From assembly GCA_028682895.1 (NCBI GenBank), contig JAJRAK010000052.1:1-64000 (forward strand): a DNA stretch of 64,000 nt, given 5' to 3'. Position 1 is the stretch's first letter. Each line of letters begins with the position of its first letter. The notes below the pieces were generated by a model. The model did not search any database. It had not been told where the DNA came from and worked only from the letters and a program-made list of their open reading frames with translations. This DNA comes from Methanomassiliicoccales archaeon. Its GTDB lineage: Archaea; Thermoplasmatota; Thermoplasmata; Methanomassiliicoccales; UBA472. Made by a program: the position numbers and the translations under genes. Below, one piece after another: positions 52,659 through 60,483 of the stretch.

Positions 52659-53273
52659 TCAATGCTTAGGCTCGTTGCAGTTAGGGCAGGTGTGCATGAA
52701 GGTCGGGAAGTTCACACCGCATTTGCGGCACTTGACCATCTCCACCTTCTTTTCCGCATGCTGCTCTTGTGCCGCGGGCTGTGCTGGCTGCGCCGGTGCC
52801 TGCTGGGGGGCGGGCGTCGGAGCGGCGGCGGGAGCCTGTTCCGCGGGCTTGTCCGGTGCGACCTGGTACTGCTGCGCCTGGTACTGCTGGTACTGAGGCT
52901 GCTGGATTACCTCCTGCAGCTTCAGGTAGGCAAGCAACAGCACTACCCCTGGGATGATGTACACGAAGAACCCCACGATGAGCCAGATAAGCAGATCATC
53001 ACTGGCCTGCTTGAACTTACCCTGGTCCAGGTTGCTGAAGACCTTCTCCTTCAGCATATAGACGACGAGGAGCCCGAGGGCGCCCATCACCAACGCGGCG
53101 ATCCCGTCACCTGTGCTTCCGGTTATTACGCGGATGATCCCCACGAGAATGCCTATGATAGCAAATACCAGTGCCAGCAATTGACCGACGTAGAGCAACT
53201 TGCGTGACTCCGCTGCGCTGGCTGGCAACCATGGCGGACCGTTCTCTGATGCTAAGAAACTGTTCAGATTCAT
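52659..53273 (-). CDS. Membrane protein with Q/P/A-rich linker and C-terminal zinc ribbon
   Basis: Three predicted TM segments, low-complexity QQPQYQQYQAQQYQ...APAAAPTPAPQQAPAQ, CRKCGVNFPTFMHTCPNCNEP. Confidence 0.7.
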   Translation of the reverse strand: MNLNSFLASENGPPWLPASAAESRKLLYVGQLLALVFAIIGILVGIIRVITGSTGDGIAALVMGALGLLVVYMLKEKVFSNLDQGKFKQASDDLLIWLIVGFFVYIIPGVVLLLAYLKLQEVIQQPQYQQYQAQQYQVAPDKPAEQAPAAAPTPAPQQAPAQPAQPAAQEQHAEKKVEMVKCRKCGVNFPTFMHTCPNCNEPKH

Positions 53274-53430: not shown

Positions 53431-54201
53431 GTGAACTGGATGAAGAATGAGGATTTCAGATATTTATATGAAAGATTAAATGATCCTTCTGATATCGACT
53501 GTCTCTGCCAGGAGCTTAGCCTGGACCGCGAACTTCTGACCGTCATCTATAGCCAAAGGACGGTACGTGAGACCACTAAGAAGTTCTACAAGGTGCAGAG
53601 GAACAGCCAGAGGATGATCCAGTCCTGGAAGAAGGGAGAGACCCTCTTGGAGCTCTCACAGCGTTTTGAGTTCCCGCCGATCCTGACCGGATTGATGATA
53701 TTCCAGGAAACAGGACGTTCCAAGAAGCAGTACTGGGCCATGGTGAGGGAGCCTGAGACCATCCAGGACGAGGAGCTGAGAAGACAGATCGTGGAGATCG
53801 CCAAGGCCGACCTCATCTATTCCCCGGAAGGTACCGAGAAGCAGTACCAGAGGGGTGCCTGGGGAGAGAAGAACCTCCAGGACTGGCTGGACGGTCAGGG
53901 CATATCCTATCGTACTGAGAAGGACCTCAGGGGCGAGTTCCCCAAGACCCCGGACGCGCTCCTGGACAAGCCCATCATGGTCAACGGTTGGAAGGTCAAT
54001 TGGATCGAGTCCAAGGCCACCTTCGGCGACCGCGTCGAGGTGAACAAGAACACCAAGAAGCAGCTGTCACCGTACGTGCAGCTCTTCGGGCAGGGCCTGG
54101 TAGTATACTGGTTCGGTTTCGTTGACGAGATAACCATGGAGGACGGCATATTCATCACCGACTCCTCCCTCAGTGGGTTGACCTGCAAACCAGTAGAGTA
54201 G
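53431..54201 (+). CDS. TPD-motif protein, archaeal homologue of CDIN1/C15orf41 (predicted PD-(D/E)XK nuclease)
   Basis: GAWGEKNLQDWLDGQGISYRTEKDLRGEFPKTPDALLDKPIMVNGWKVNWIESKATFGD: TPD motif followed by ESK; start GTG 53431 or ATG 53440. Confidence 0.8.
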   Translation: MNWMKNEDFRYLYERLNDPSDIDCLCQELSLDRELLTVIYSQRTVRETTKKFYKVQRNSQRMIQSWKKGETLLELSQRFEFPPILTGLMIFQETGRSKKQYWAMVREPETIQDEELRRQIVEIAKADLIYSPEGTEKQYQRGAWGEKNLQDWLDGQGISYRTEKDLRGEFPKTPDALLDKPIMVNGWKVNWIESKATFGDRVEVNKNTKKQLSPYVQLFGQGLVVYWFGFVDEITMEDGIFITDSSLSGLTCKPVE

Positions 54202-54245: not shown

Positions 54246-55235
54246 ATGGACCGGGGCGATGTCATCTCAGCCAGCGACTTGGAGCGGTACGGCTACTGCC
54301 CGCTCAGTTGGTGGCTAGGGCGTCAGGCCAAGGTCCACAACGCCGAACTTGACGAGGGCGACCGGATCCATCGCAGCAAGGCCGATGAATACCTGCGCAT
54401 CACCCACGCCGAGGAGATGGCCTGGGACTGGGAACGCATGGTCTTCCTCTTCTCATTGGTGGCGACCGTGCTCGCTCTGACCGGGATATCACTGATGCGC
54501 GTCGATGGCGGGGCCGATTGGGGATGGGCCCTCACTCTGCTGAGCATCATGTGGTTCTTCGTGGTCATCGCTCTGCTCTATCTATCAGCGCAGAAAGGCA
54601 GGGCGCTCATAATGGTCCGCCGGCAGCAGATGCTGGCCATCGTAGGCCTGGTGATGATGGTCATCGCCATGAACGTGGGGACCCTCATCGAGGTCGACCC
54701 CTTGGTCTCCATGATAATCGAGGCCTTGGCCTTGCTGTGGTTGATAGCTGCCTCGTTCGCCTTGTACCGTTCCCTGTCCGCCGCTCAGCAAGCAAAGGAA
54801 TGGATGGGGGAGCAGAAGCTGGAAGGCAAGATACATTACGTGGGGACGGACAGTTCCCCCTTGTACCTCTCCGAGAGCCTTGGGCTGAGCGGTCGTCCCG
54901 ATTTCGTGCTGGAGGTGAACGGCAATCTGATACCGGGGGACCTGAAGACCGGACGCACACCGAAAGGCCCCTTGTTCTCTCACATCCTTCAGGTGGCCGC
55001 CTACTGCGTCCTGATCGCCGAGAGCTCGGGAAAGAGGCCTCCGTACGGACTTCTCGTATACGGTGACATGGAGCACGAGATAGAGTTCACCGATGAGCTG
55101 GAGAAGATATTGCATAATAAGTTGGAGGAGATGCACGGGATCATCGTGACCGGCGAGGCGCATCGTAACCATAATCGTCCTGGTAAGTGCACCACCTGCT
55201 CGCGCCGTGCCTCCTGCCCCGAGAGATTGAACTGA
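54246..55235 (+). CDS. Cas4-like Fe-S PD-(D/E)XK nuclease with internal transmembrane insertion
   Basis: N-term ISASDLERYGYCPLSWWL, four hydrophobic helices, GRPDFVLEVNGNLIPGDLKTGRTPKGPLFSHILQVAAYCVL, C-terminal CTTCSRRASCPE. Confidence 0.82.
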   Translation: MDRGDVISASDLERYGYCPLSWWLGRQAKVHNAELDEGDRIHRSKADEYLRITHAEEMAWDWERMVFLFSLVATVLALTGISLMRVDGGADWGWALTLLSIMWFFVVIALLYLSAQKGRALIMVRRQQMLAIVGLVMMVIAMNVGTLIEVDPLVSMIIEALALLWLIAASFALYRSLSAAQQAKEWMGEQKLEGKIHYVGTDSSPLYLSESLGLSGRPDFVLEVNGNLIPGDLKTGRTPKGPLFSHILQVAAYCVLIAESSGKRPPYGLLVYGDMEHEIEFTDELEKILHNKLEEMHGIIVTGEAHRNHNRPGKCTTCSRRASCPERLN

Positions 55236-58223: not shown

Positions 58224-58353
58224 TATTCTCCTCCCTAGTAGCCATCATCTGGCCATTTAATAATCTTTTTCAACGCGATGATATCATTACTTGTAAAGAG
58301 ACAGCATGCTTTAAATGTCCTTTCGAACGATAGTATTCGCGAGAAGGTTCCGT

Positions 58354-59793
58354 ATGAACGATGAACGCCCTTCAATGCTACCGCATGAGATAATCCAATT
58401 TCTAGACGGCTCGGGAGGACATTCCCTGATCGTCAGAGGGAACGCTGGAACCGGCAAGACAACGTTCACACTTCAGCTGGCGGAGGAGTTCAAGGACCGG
58501 CAAGAGGCCCATTACCTTTCCACGCGCGTGTCGGATAACGCTCTGCTAAACCAATTTCCTTGGCTCAAGGACCGGCTCTTAAAAAAGACAGAGGTGGACA
58601 CCGGACAGAGCCGCTCCGGGCTGGGAAAGCTGAAAGGGATCCATATGGGGGAGATCGTCACCCAGCACAGGGAGATGACGATATCCATCGGCAGGACCAT
58701 GCCGGACATCGAGCGCATCTATGAGATAATCGAGAGCTCGAACGACCGGAGGATGGTCATCGTCGATAGCATAGATGCCCTGGCCGATCGTTATGACCTT
58801 AACAACCGAGAATTGATGATCGCGTTGCAACGGGACCTGGTGGAGGGCAATGGAGCCAACGTTGTCCTGGTCCTTGAGAGCAACGATCACATGCTCGATT
58901 ACCTCGGCGACGGCGTGCTGGAGTTCACCCGCAACGAGCATGATAGACGCCTCATCAGGGAGATGGACCTGATGAAGCTTCGCGGCTGCGAGATCCAGCA
59001 GCCATTGTACATATACACTCTTAAGGGCGGTCGTTTCCAATGCTTCGGGGCCGATTGGGACGCGGTCAAGAACGACATCAAGAAGGGATGGACCGTCACC
59101 AACGACCTCCAGGGAAAGCTCTCATACGGTATCGAGGACCTGGACCACATGACCGGAGGGATGGTCCCTGGCGATATCGTGTTGGTCGAGTTCGGCCAGG
59201 CGATGCCGCCGATCGTCGGCGACCTGCTCGAACGGTCATTGGTCTCCAACTTCGCCAACACCGGCCATGGGGTGATCTGGATCCCTCTGCGCAAATCGAG
59301 CGGCTCCACCGCCCGGGCGGTCCTGCACGAAATGATACCGAACGATGTCCTGGAGAGGACCGTCAGAGTGATCGAACCAGCATCCCAGATGGATTCGGAG
59401 GGAGGCCGTTTCGTTCTCCCGGTGGAAGGGAGCAATGTGACCAACGACCTCAAATGGAAGAACCTGGCCTTCAGTCTCGAGAGCGCTTCCAACCCGTTCC
59501 TGTCCCTCATCGGCATGGACAATTTGGAATCGATATATGGCGGCAACGTGATGGAGGGGCTGGTAGAGCATCTGGCCGCCATCAGGAGGAACGGCGGGGT
59601 CTTCGTCGGCATGACCACGCCGACCAGCCAATCGAGCGCAAGGTTGGCCGACATGGCCACCGTGCATATCAAGGCGCAGAGGATAGGAGGGACCGTCGTG
59701 TTCTACGGCAGCAAGCCCTTCACGGAATGTTATGCCCTGAGGCTAGAGCACAGGGCGAAAGGCGGGTGCGGGACCCTGACCCCGTTAGTGTGA
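58354..59793 (+). CDS. KaiC/RAD55-like tandem ATPase, second domain with degenerate P-loop
   Basis: Domain 1 IVRGNAGTGKTTFTLQLAEEF and RRMVIVDSIDAL; domain 2 LSYGIEDLDHMTGGMVPGDIVLVEFGQAMPPIVGDLLE lacks GK[ST]. Confidence 0.8.
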   Translation: MNDERPSMLPHEIIQFLDGSGGHSLIVRGNAGTGKTTFTLQLAEEFKDRQEAHYLSTRVSDNALLNQFPWLKDRLLKKTEVDTGQSRSGLGKLKGIHMGEIVTQHREMTISIGRTMPDIERIYEIIESSNDRRMVIVDSIDALADRYDLNNRELMIALQRDLVEGNGANVVLVLESNDHMLDYLGDGVLEFTRNEHDRRLIREMDLMKLRGCEIQQPLYIYTLKGGRFQCFGADWDAVKNDIKKGWTVTNDLQGKLSYGIEDLDHMTGGMVPGDIVLVEFGQAMPPIVGDLLERSLVSNFANTGHGVIWIPLRKSSGSTARAVLHEMIPNDVLERTVRVIEPASQMDSEGGRFVLPVEGSNVTNDLKWKNLAFSLESASNPFLSLIGMDNLESIYGGNVMEGLVEHLAAIRRNGGVFVGMTTPTSQSSARLADMATVHIKAQRIGGTVVFYGSKPFTECYALRLEHRAKGGCGTLTPLV

Positions 59794-59802
59794 TGTGATA
59801 TC

Positions 59803-60483
59803 ATGTTCAAGACCAATCTTCCCCAGAAATCATCGATCCTGTTGCTCGGCAGCCCTGGAGTGGGACTGCTGGAGTTCGAGCTGGGAATGGTCAAGGAATA
59901 TTTGGACAATGACGAGCCGGTGGTCTTCGTAATCATGGACATGTTACCGAAGGACCTGATATCGTTGATGCAGCGTTTTGGCATATCTCAGGACAGCCTT
60001 GGTAACGGCCTCTACATCATCGATTACCATTCCAGCCTTCTTGGCAACACCGATGATCGCGATACGTACGAGAGGCGCAAGGTGCGGCGCATCACCGACC
60101 TGGAAGGCATCATGTTCAACGTCGCCAACATCTATGAGGAGGTCAAGAGGCCGCTTCGAATCTTCGTGCACACGCTCTCCACCCTCTTCCTCTATAACCA
60201 GCCGGGCGTGGTGCTGAAGTTCTTCCAGATCAGCGCGTCGCGCATCAGGAGCGAGTACGGCACGGCCATCGTTGCCGTGCACGAGGGAGTGCACGACGAC
60301 AAGTCGGTGAACCACCTGGTGGCGCTTGCCGACGGCGTGATAGAACTAGGTTTCGACGCGAACCTCAACCGCATGCTGAGGGTCAGGCACATGCGCGGGA
60401 CGACCGCGCCCTGCCATTGGATGCCGTTCCAGATCACACCGGCCCGTGACGATAACCAGACACCGGTGCTGTTGTGGAAGTGA
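59803..60483 (+). CDS. KaiC/RAD55-like protein with degenerate P-loop
   Basis: SSILLLGSPGVGLLEFELGMVKEYL in place of Walker A; RRITDLEGIMFNVANIYEEV...LRIFVHTLSTLFLYNQ. Confidence 0.75.
   Translation: MFKTNLPQKSSILLLGSPGVGLLEFELGMVKEYLDNDEPVVFVIMDMLPKDLISLMQRFGISQDSLGNGLYIIDYHSSLLGNTDDRDTYERRKVRRITDLEGIMFNVANIYEEVKRPLRIFVHTLSTLFLYNQPGVVLKFFQISASRIRSEYGTAIVAVHEGVHDDKSVNHLVALADGVIELGFDANLNRMLRVRHMRGTTAPCHWMPFQITPARDDNQTPVLLWK

Follow-up and report, generated by a model that had tools for sequence, protein, structure and literature searches.

In CRISPR systems, DNA is trimmed by Cas4, a nuclease known in soluble form. A gene in a Methanomassiliicoccales genome raises the question of what a protein with the hallmarks of Cas4, interrupted by a run of hydrophobic helices, would do at the membrane of an archaeal cell. 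The gene, here called mCas4, lies in a stretch of 64,000 nucleotides that was analyzed as a whole (the window; Table 1). An earlier note, made from the sequence of the window, had listed as Cas4 hallmarks a cysteine near the N terminus (YCPLSWWL), three cysteines at the C terminus, a PD...DLK core, and a QVAAYC helix. All of these were found again, as the invariant C18, the invariant C315-x2-C318-x5-C324, P218-D219 with D232-L-K234, and Q249...Y253, respectively, and a further catalytic-type motif that was absent from that list, G38-x3-H42, precedes the hydrophobic region.

Conservation was examined in an alignment of 31 four-helix orthologs, whose members other than the window protein are 39 to 74% identical to it. 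Residues C18, G38, H42, D219, K234, Q249, Y253, C315, C318, and C324 are invariant or nearly so, with no exception at G38 and H42. When the halves of naturally split proteins (described below) were added to the alignment, C18 and G38 remained invariant and H42 was present in ≥90% of the N-terminal parts, and D219, K234, C315, C318, and C324 were invariant among the C-terminal parts. The catalytic residues (H42, D219, D232-K234, and Q249/Y253) align with those of Cas4, and the one N-terminal and three C-terminal cysteines are spaced as in Cas4. The curated cutoffs of three profiles were exceeded: PF12705 (PDDEXK_1; the best Pfam match, E = 6.5e-14, 52.9 bits against a cutoff of 22), PF01930 (E = 4e-7, 30.6 bits against 22.7), and TIGR00372 (cas4; 65.5 bits against 65). 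These profiles, and PADLOC Cas4 models (1e-18), match residues about 200 to 325, and a sequence search of the PDB returned a type I-C Cas4 as its only match, a weak one (E = 0.018). The dN/dS ratio of about 0.07 to 0.2 indicates purifying selection.

Table 1. Coordinates, in the window, of mCas4, its conserved motifs and hydrophobic helices, and the adjacent TPD gene
Feature	Position	Strand	Remarks
TPD-domain protein (PF14811)	53431..54201	+	44 bp before mCas4; PF14811 E = 4.9e-43
mCas4 (Cas4-family nuclease, predicted membrane-embedded)	54246..55235	+	Whole gene, 329 aa, ATG start; end includes stop codon
Cys18 (YCPLSWW), N-terminal putative Fe-S ligand	54297..54299	+	Invariant
G38-x3-H42, catalytic-type His of Cas4/RecB nucleases	54357..54371	+	5′ of the membrane insert
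Hydrophobic helix 1, residues 65-83	54438..54494	+	Hydropathy; within modeled helix 33-82
Hydrophobic helix 2, residues 95-113	54528..54584	+	Hydropathy; hairpin 1 homologous to hairpin 2
Hydrophobic helix 3, residues 122-145	54609..54680	+	Hydropathy and model; preceded by positively charged loop
Hydrophobic helix 4, residues 153-171	54702..54758	+	Hydropathy; modeled helix 152-189 leads to core
Asp219 of PD motif (P218-D219)	54900..54902	+	≥90% in 31 orthologs
(D/E)xK, D232-L-K234	54939..54947	+	K invariant; D or E at 232
QxxxY, Q249...Y253 (QVAAYC helix)	54990..55004	+	Conserved in alignments
C315-x2-C318-x5-C324, Cas4-type putative Fe-S ligands	55188..55217	+	Invariant

The predicted structure leads to the same family. 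The AlphaFold model (pLDDT 80, pTM 0.75) is of low confidence in the insert, at a pLDDT of about 56 to 73. Its best Foldseek matches were Cas4 chains, the top one being the Cas4 of the type I-C Cas4-Cas1-Cas2 complex (E = 1e-5, probability 1.0), followed by MGME1, AdnAB, and ACE1. The TM-scores were modest, 0.33 when scaled to the length of the query and at most 0.55 when scaled to that of the target, which the long insert would lead one to expect. With profiles, modeled fold, and aligned catalytic residues in agreement, the open reading frame is confirmed, at the level of sequence, as encoding a Cas4-family PD-(D/E)XK nuclease, and nuclease activity is predicted.

The earlier note had placed about 110 residues with four hydrophobic helices between the N-terminal cysteine region and the nuclease core. 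The four helices hold up and the length is revised to about 120 residues (approximately 61 to 180), which follow the Gx3H helix and precede the catalytic sheet. Four hydrophobic peaks, with Kyte-Doolittle means over 19 residues of 1.6 to 2.5, recur in 40/44 orthologs, whereas the same scan of the scorable CRISPR-type Cas4 proteins of the class detected no hydrophobic helix. Comparison of the two halves of the insert by hhalign (probability 98%, E = 2e-13) points to the duplication of a helix hairpin. The second loop carries a mean of 2.3 lysine or arginine residues, compared with 0.7 in the first and 0.4 in the third. The assignment of membrane helices rests on hydropathy and conservation, and a predicted integral membrane insert fits the sequence, its evolution (by hairpin duplication, and into the variant forms described below), and the charge pattern. 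Because of this positive-inside pattern and a helix number that is mostly even in the family, both halves of the nuclease are predicted to be cytosolic, which speaks against the earlier suggestion that the enzyme acts on exported DNA. In the model, the Gx3H helix and hydrophobic helix 1 are continuous in a single helix (residues 33 to 82), and a second one (152 to 189) connects hydrophobic helix 4 with the nuclease core. These long helices would run from the histidine motif into the membrane and then back into the core.

The size of the insert varies among relatives, and its site in the nuclease fold is constant. The four-helix form accounts for the majority of mCas4 proteins; two helices are present in L195, L200, and L201, and seven to eight in L131 to L133, L196, and L197. 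In four groups of genomes, namely, families f14, f22, and f36 and a second copy in genome G145, the break in the protein falls exactly at the insert, and its two parts are the products of adjacent or overlapping genes, each with a single helix (loci L134 to L143, L149, L150, and L182 to L187, besides L202 to L212 of f22). The N-terminal half, about 82 to 113 aa as called, contains the cysteine, Gx3H, and one hydrophobic helix at its C terminus, and the C-terminal half, about 170 to 190 aa, contains one helix at its N terminus followed by PD, ExK, QxxxY, and three cysteines. The junctions range from an overlap of 43 nucleotides to adjoining stop and start codons, and the split pair is colinear with the two-helix single chains in the alignment. 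An N-half frame lies beside or overlaps the C-half in 6/6 loci of f36 and in 12/12 of the weak class-level matches that were examined. Since the cysteine and Gx3H reside in one half and the D/E/K residues and three cysteines in the other, neither the active site nor the Fe-S cluster should, judging from this anatomy, form without both halves. AlphaFold yielded a poor model (pLDDT 63) of a split pair read through as one chain, for which Foldseek still ranked Cas4 first.

A pseudogene was considered as an explanation of the split. The same split, with motifs intact in both halves, is present at every examined locus of f22, f14, and f36, and the split loci differ among themselves in reading frames and stop codons; the recurrence of the split with conserved motifs led us to reject this reading. 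Genome G145 carries both a split mCas4 (L143) and a four-helix one (G145:C17:7827-8777). Two split copies are present in G286 (L182, L183, and L222), one of them near a gene that resembles a methyltransferase by eye.

A search of contigs with the single protein gave no match, and a search with the alignment gave 213 relatives. Orthologs were found in 41 of 61 near relatives. At an E value of ≤0.001, matches were present in 187/250 genomes of the class and 187/272 good genomes of the phylum, both of which are maxima, given that other nucleases may be among the weak matches that pass this threshold. The relatives that bear names are Methanomassiliicoccales and other Thermoplasmata metagenome-assembled genomes, including DHVE2, Sysuiplasma, and Saliniplasma. 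The family is mostly single copy, occurs in many families of Thermoplasmatota, with relatives in most of the phylum, and is apparently inherited vertically. A viral or plasmid origin was rejected, as no viral relatives were matched and the plasmid matches cover 35 to 41% of the query, in the soluble nuclease core only. The gene is absent from nearly all genomes of family f2, which supplies 18 of the 20 listed genomes without a match, G054 being the only f2 genome among those matched. In some genomes of family f6, it has been lost cleanly: the TPD gene adjoins glmS in L278, leaving no space for mCas4, and in L279 and L280 the gap between TPD and glmS is about 330 to 370 bp, with mCas4 gone and its neighbors kept. 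These losses indicate that mCas4 is not essential.

Outside a few clades, the gene neighborhood is not conserved. In family f22, the order smc-scpA-(N-half)-(C-half)-tyrS was found in 11/11 loci (L202 to L212, with both halves detected in L208), with junctions that mostly overlap or abut, forming an apparent operon. The SMC protein of f22 was identified by Pfam, and its ScpA was matched to the ScpA of the window's own genome by profile comparison (hhalign, 99.7%, E = 1e-25). This link to SMC is confined to that one family. The TPD gene precedes mCas4 in the window and at about 33 further loci. Its product is an archaeal relative of human C15orf41/CDIN1, which has been described as a predicted nuclease with a relationship to Holliday junction resolvases (PMC7092493). 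TPD was rejected as an obligate partner, since it occurs without mCas4 (f2 and some f6) and mCas4 occurs without it (f11 and f18); it is a lineage-specific neighbor. Other genes of the window were observed in relatives: one for a small membrane protein that has a zinc-ribbon-like CxxC pair at its C terminus (52659-53273, minus strand), which is a divergent neighbor of TPD in about 22 loci, and tandem GvpD/KaiC-like ATPase genes (58315-60483, plus strand), which are conserved neighbors beyond glmS/glmU.

What is solid in these results is the identity of the family and its unusual anatomy, and from the distribution and the gene neighborhoods we infer the biochemical role. The breadth of the family, its mostly single copy number, and its recurrent neighbors in DNA metabolism favor housekeeping DNA processing at the membrane, and we give about even credence to the reading that mCas4 is a membrane-tethered, cytosol-facing DNA-processing nuclease that serves housekeeping or chromosome upkeep and not CRISPR spacer acquisition. 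In this proposal, a Cas4-family PD-(D/E)XK fold of the [4Fe-4S] type would be interrupted after the Gx3H helix and before the catalytic sheet by at least one transmembrane hairpin, and the hairpins would keep the nuclease at the membrane, on its cytosolic side. In the split lineages, two single-pass proteins would, as their anatomy suggests, come together in the membrane and so form a complete active site and cluster. The most likely job would be, for example, to trim or clear the ends or strands of DNA as chromosomes segregate, as DNA is repaired, or as cells separate. Counting against upkeep of the chromosome is the dispensability of the gene, with its clean losses and near absence from f2. 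More tentatively, and with greater doubt than confidence, we suggest that these are phylum-level membrane nucleases whose Cas4 site and Fe-S cluster are built from two halves joined only by way of the membrane, with several lineages making the halves as individual single-pass proteins. If so, assembly in the membrane could gate nuclease activity, and in the one lineage with smc and scpA alongside, mCas4 and the SMC-ScpA complex would form a membrane-linked machine for chromosome processing.

The main rival owes its place to a different operon. In 16 loci, mCas4 lies downstream of a gene for an LTD(x2)-PLD-PLD-PKD protein with a signal peptide and a C-terminal anchor, separated by 7 to 24 bp where start calls are clean, and in both f18 loci that were examined the third gene downstream encodes a related LTD-PLD protein. 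This protein is possibly a surface nuclease (examples near mCas4 are L097:2339-4993 and its relatives and L219:9901-11733), and action of mCas4 on incoming DNA, as proposed in the earlier note, is possible given this operon in some lineages. Under such a scheme of DNA foraging, the surface protein would cut environmental DNA and mCas4 would process the entering DNA for nucleotide salvage, a role to which the purine salvage genes close to mCas4 in the window (an adenine deaminase and two phosphoribosyltransferases) would be suited, although they are perhaps chance neighbors. The window's own lineage, however, has TPD and not LTD-PLD adjacent to mCas4, no transporter-like gene is common to the lineages, and no ComEC homolog was found in the window's genome, so that ComEC-type uptake was rejected there. 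On balance, foraging seems rather unlikely.

Envelope-linked innate defense, in which the nuclease would attack entering viral DNA, had also been raised in the earlier note and fares less well. Relatives of Cas4 are common in defense, a nuclease at the membrane would encounter DNA as it enters, mCas4 itself has a weak PADLOC match to DruK, and the methyltransferase-like gene near one of the G286 copies could be read in the same way. Yet mCas4 is broadly retained within most families, not patchy, and its mostly single copy, its occurrence in many families, and purifying selection are at odds with such a role. Its neighborhoods are of a housekeeping kind, with the only PADLOC matches there in the window reflecting generic similarity to ATPases and phosphoribosyltransferases, and the lack of viral matches and the core-only plasmid matches add to the case, making defense improbable.

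The relation to CRISPR was addressed by a tree of nuclease cores and a search of the genome. All mCas4 architectures group together and apart from the CRISPR-type Cas4 proteins (SH-aLRT 90) in the core tree, in which the branching of the split groups is weakly supported and branch supports are mostly 80 to 90. In the window's genome, another Cas4 adjoins the only cas1 match, on contig C55. The earlier observation that the window has no CRISPR array or other cas gene stands: a search for direct repeats detected no CRISPR-like array in the 64 kb, and PADLOC placed no cas gene near mCas4. That mCas4 is a CRISPR Cas4 turned membrane-bound and still serving spacer acquisition, for which its TIGR00372 score just above the cutoff might be cited, is therefore highly improbable given the separate Cas4 beside Cas1 in the same genome, the position of CRISPR-type Cas4 proteins on their own side of the tree, and the lack of cas1, cas2, or an array beside mCas4.

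Compared with Cas4 itself (TIGR00372/PF01930; type I-C Cas4 of 8d3l/8d3q, SSO0001, and Pcal_0546), mCas4 has the same fold, the same Gx3H, PD, (D/E)xK, and QxxxY motifs, and the same four cysteines, with C-x2-C-x5-C at the C terminus, but differs in its 120-residue membrane insert, the absence of adjacent cas genes, its separate branch, and its split forms. The nuclease domains of MGME1, Dna2, and AdnAB/RecB match its fold in Foldseek; MGME1 lacks the Fe-S cysteines of Cas4, and we know of no membrane insert in any of these domains. ACE1 (9iab and 9iac), an Argonaute-associated Cas4-family protein, shares the fold outside CRISPR, although the association with Argonaute is its own, as no Argonaute gene was recognized beside mCas4. 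The PF12705 (PDDEXK_1) Cas4-like nucleases belong to the same superfamily and have been described to include UvrD-Cas4 fusions (PMC5704561), whereas mCas4 has membrane hairpins in place of a helicase. The words "transmembrane" and "Thermoplasma" are absent from the main text of the 2017 survey of the Cas4 family (PMC5704561), and full-text searches of the open-licence literature gave no account of a Cas4 that is split or membrane-bound. A broadly inherited membrane Cas4 with graded helix numbers and a natural split would be a case of a nuclease active site constructed around an insert in the membrane, and would open to test the handling of DNA at the membrane in Thermoplasmatota, a phylum with many uncultured members. 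With the split form, genetics and biochemistry could address directly whether the enzyme must assemble in the membrane to be active. Elsewhere in the window's genome, a further weak Cas4-like PD-(D/E)XK match was observed (L002; G000:C59:55067-55405), in a frame of 256 aa.
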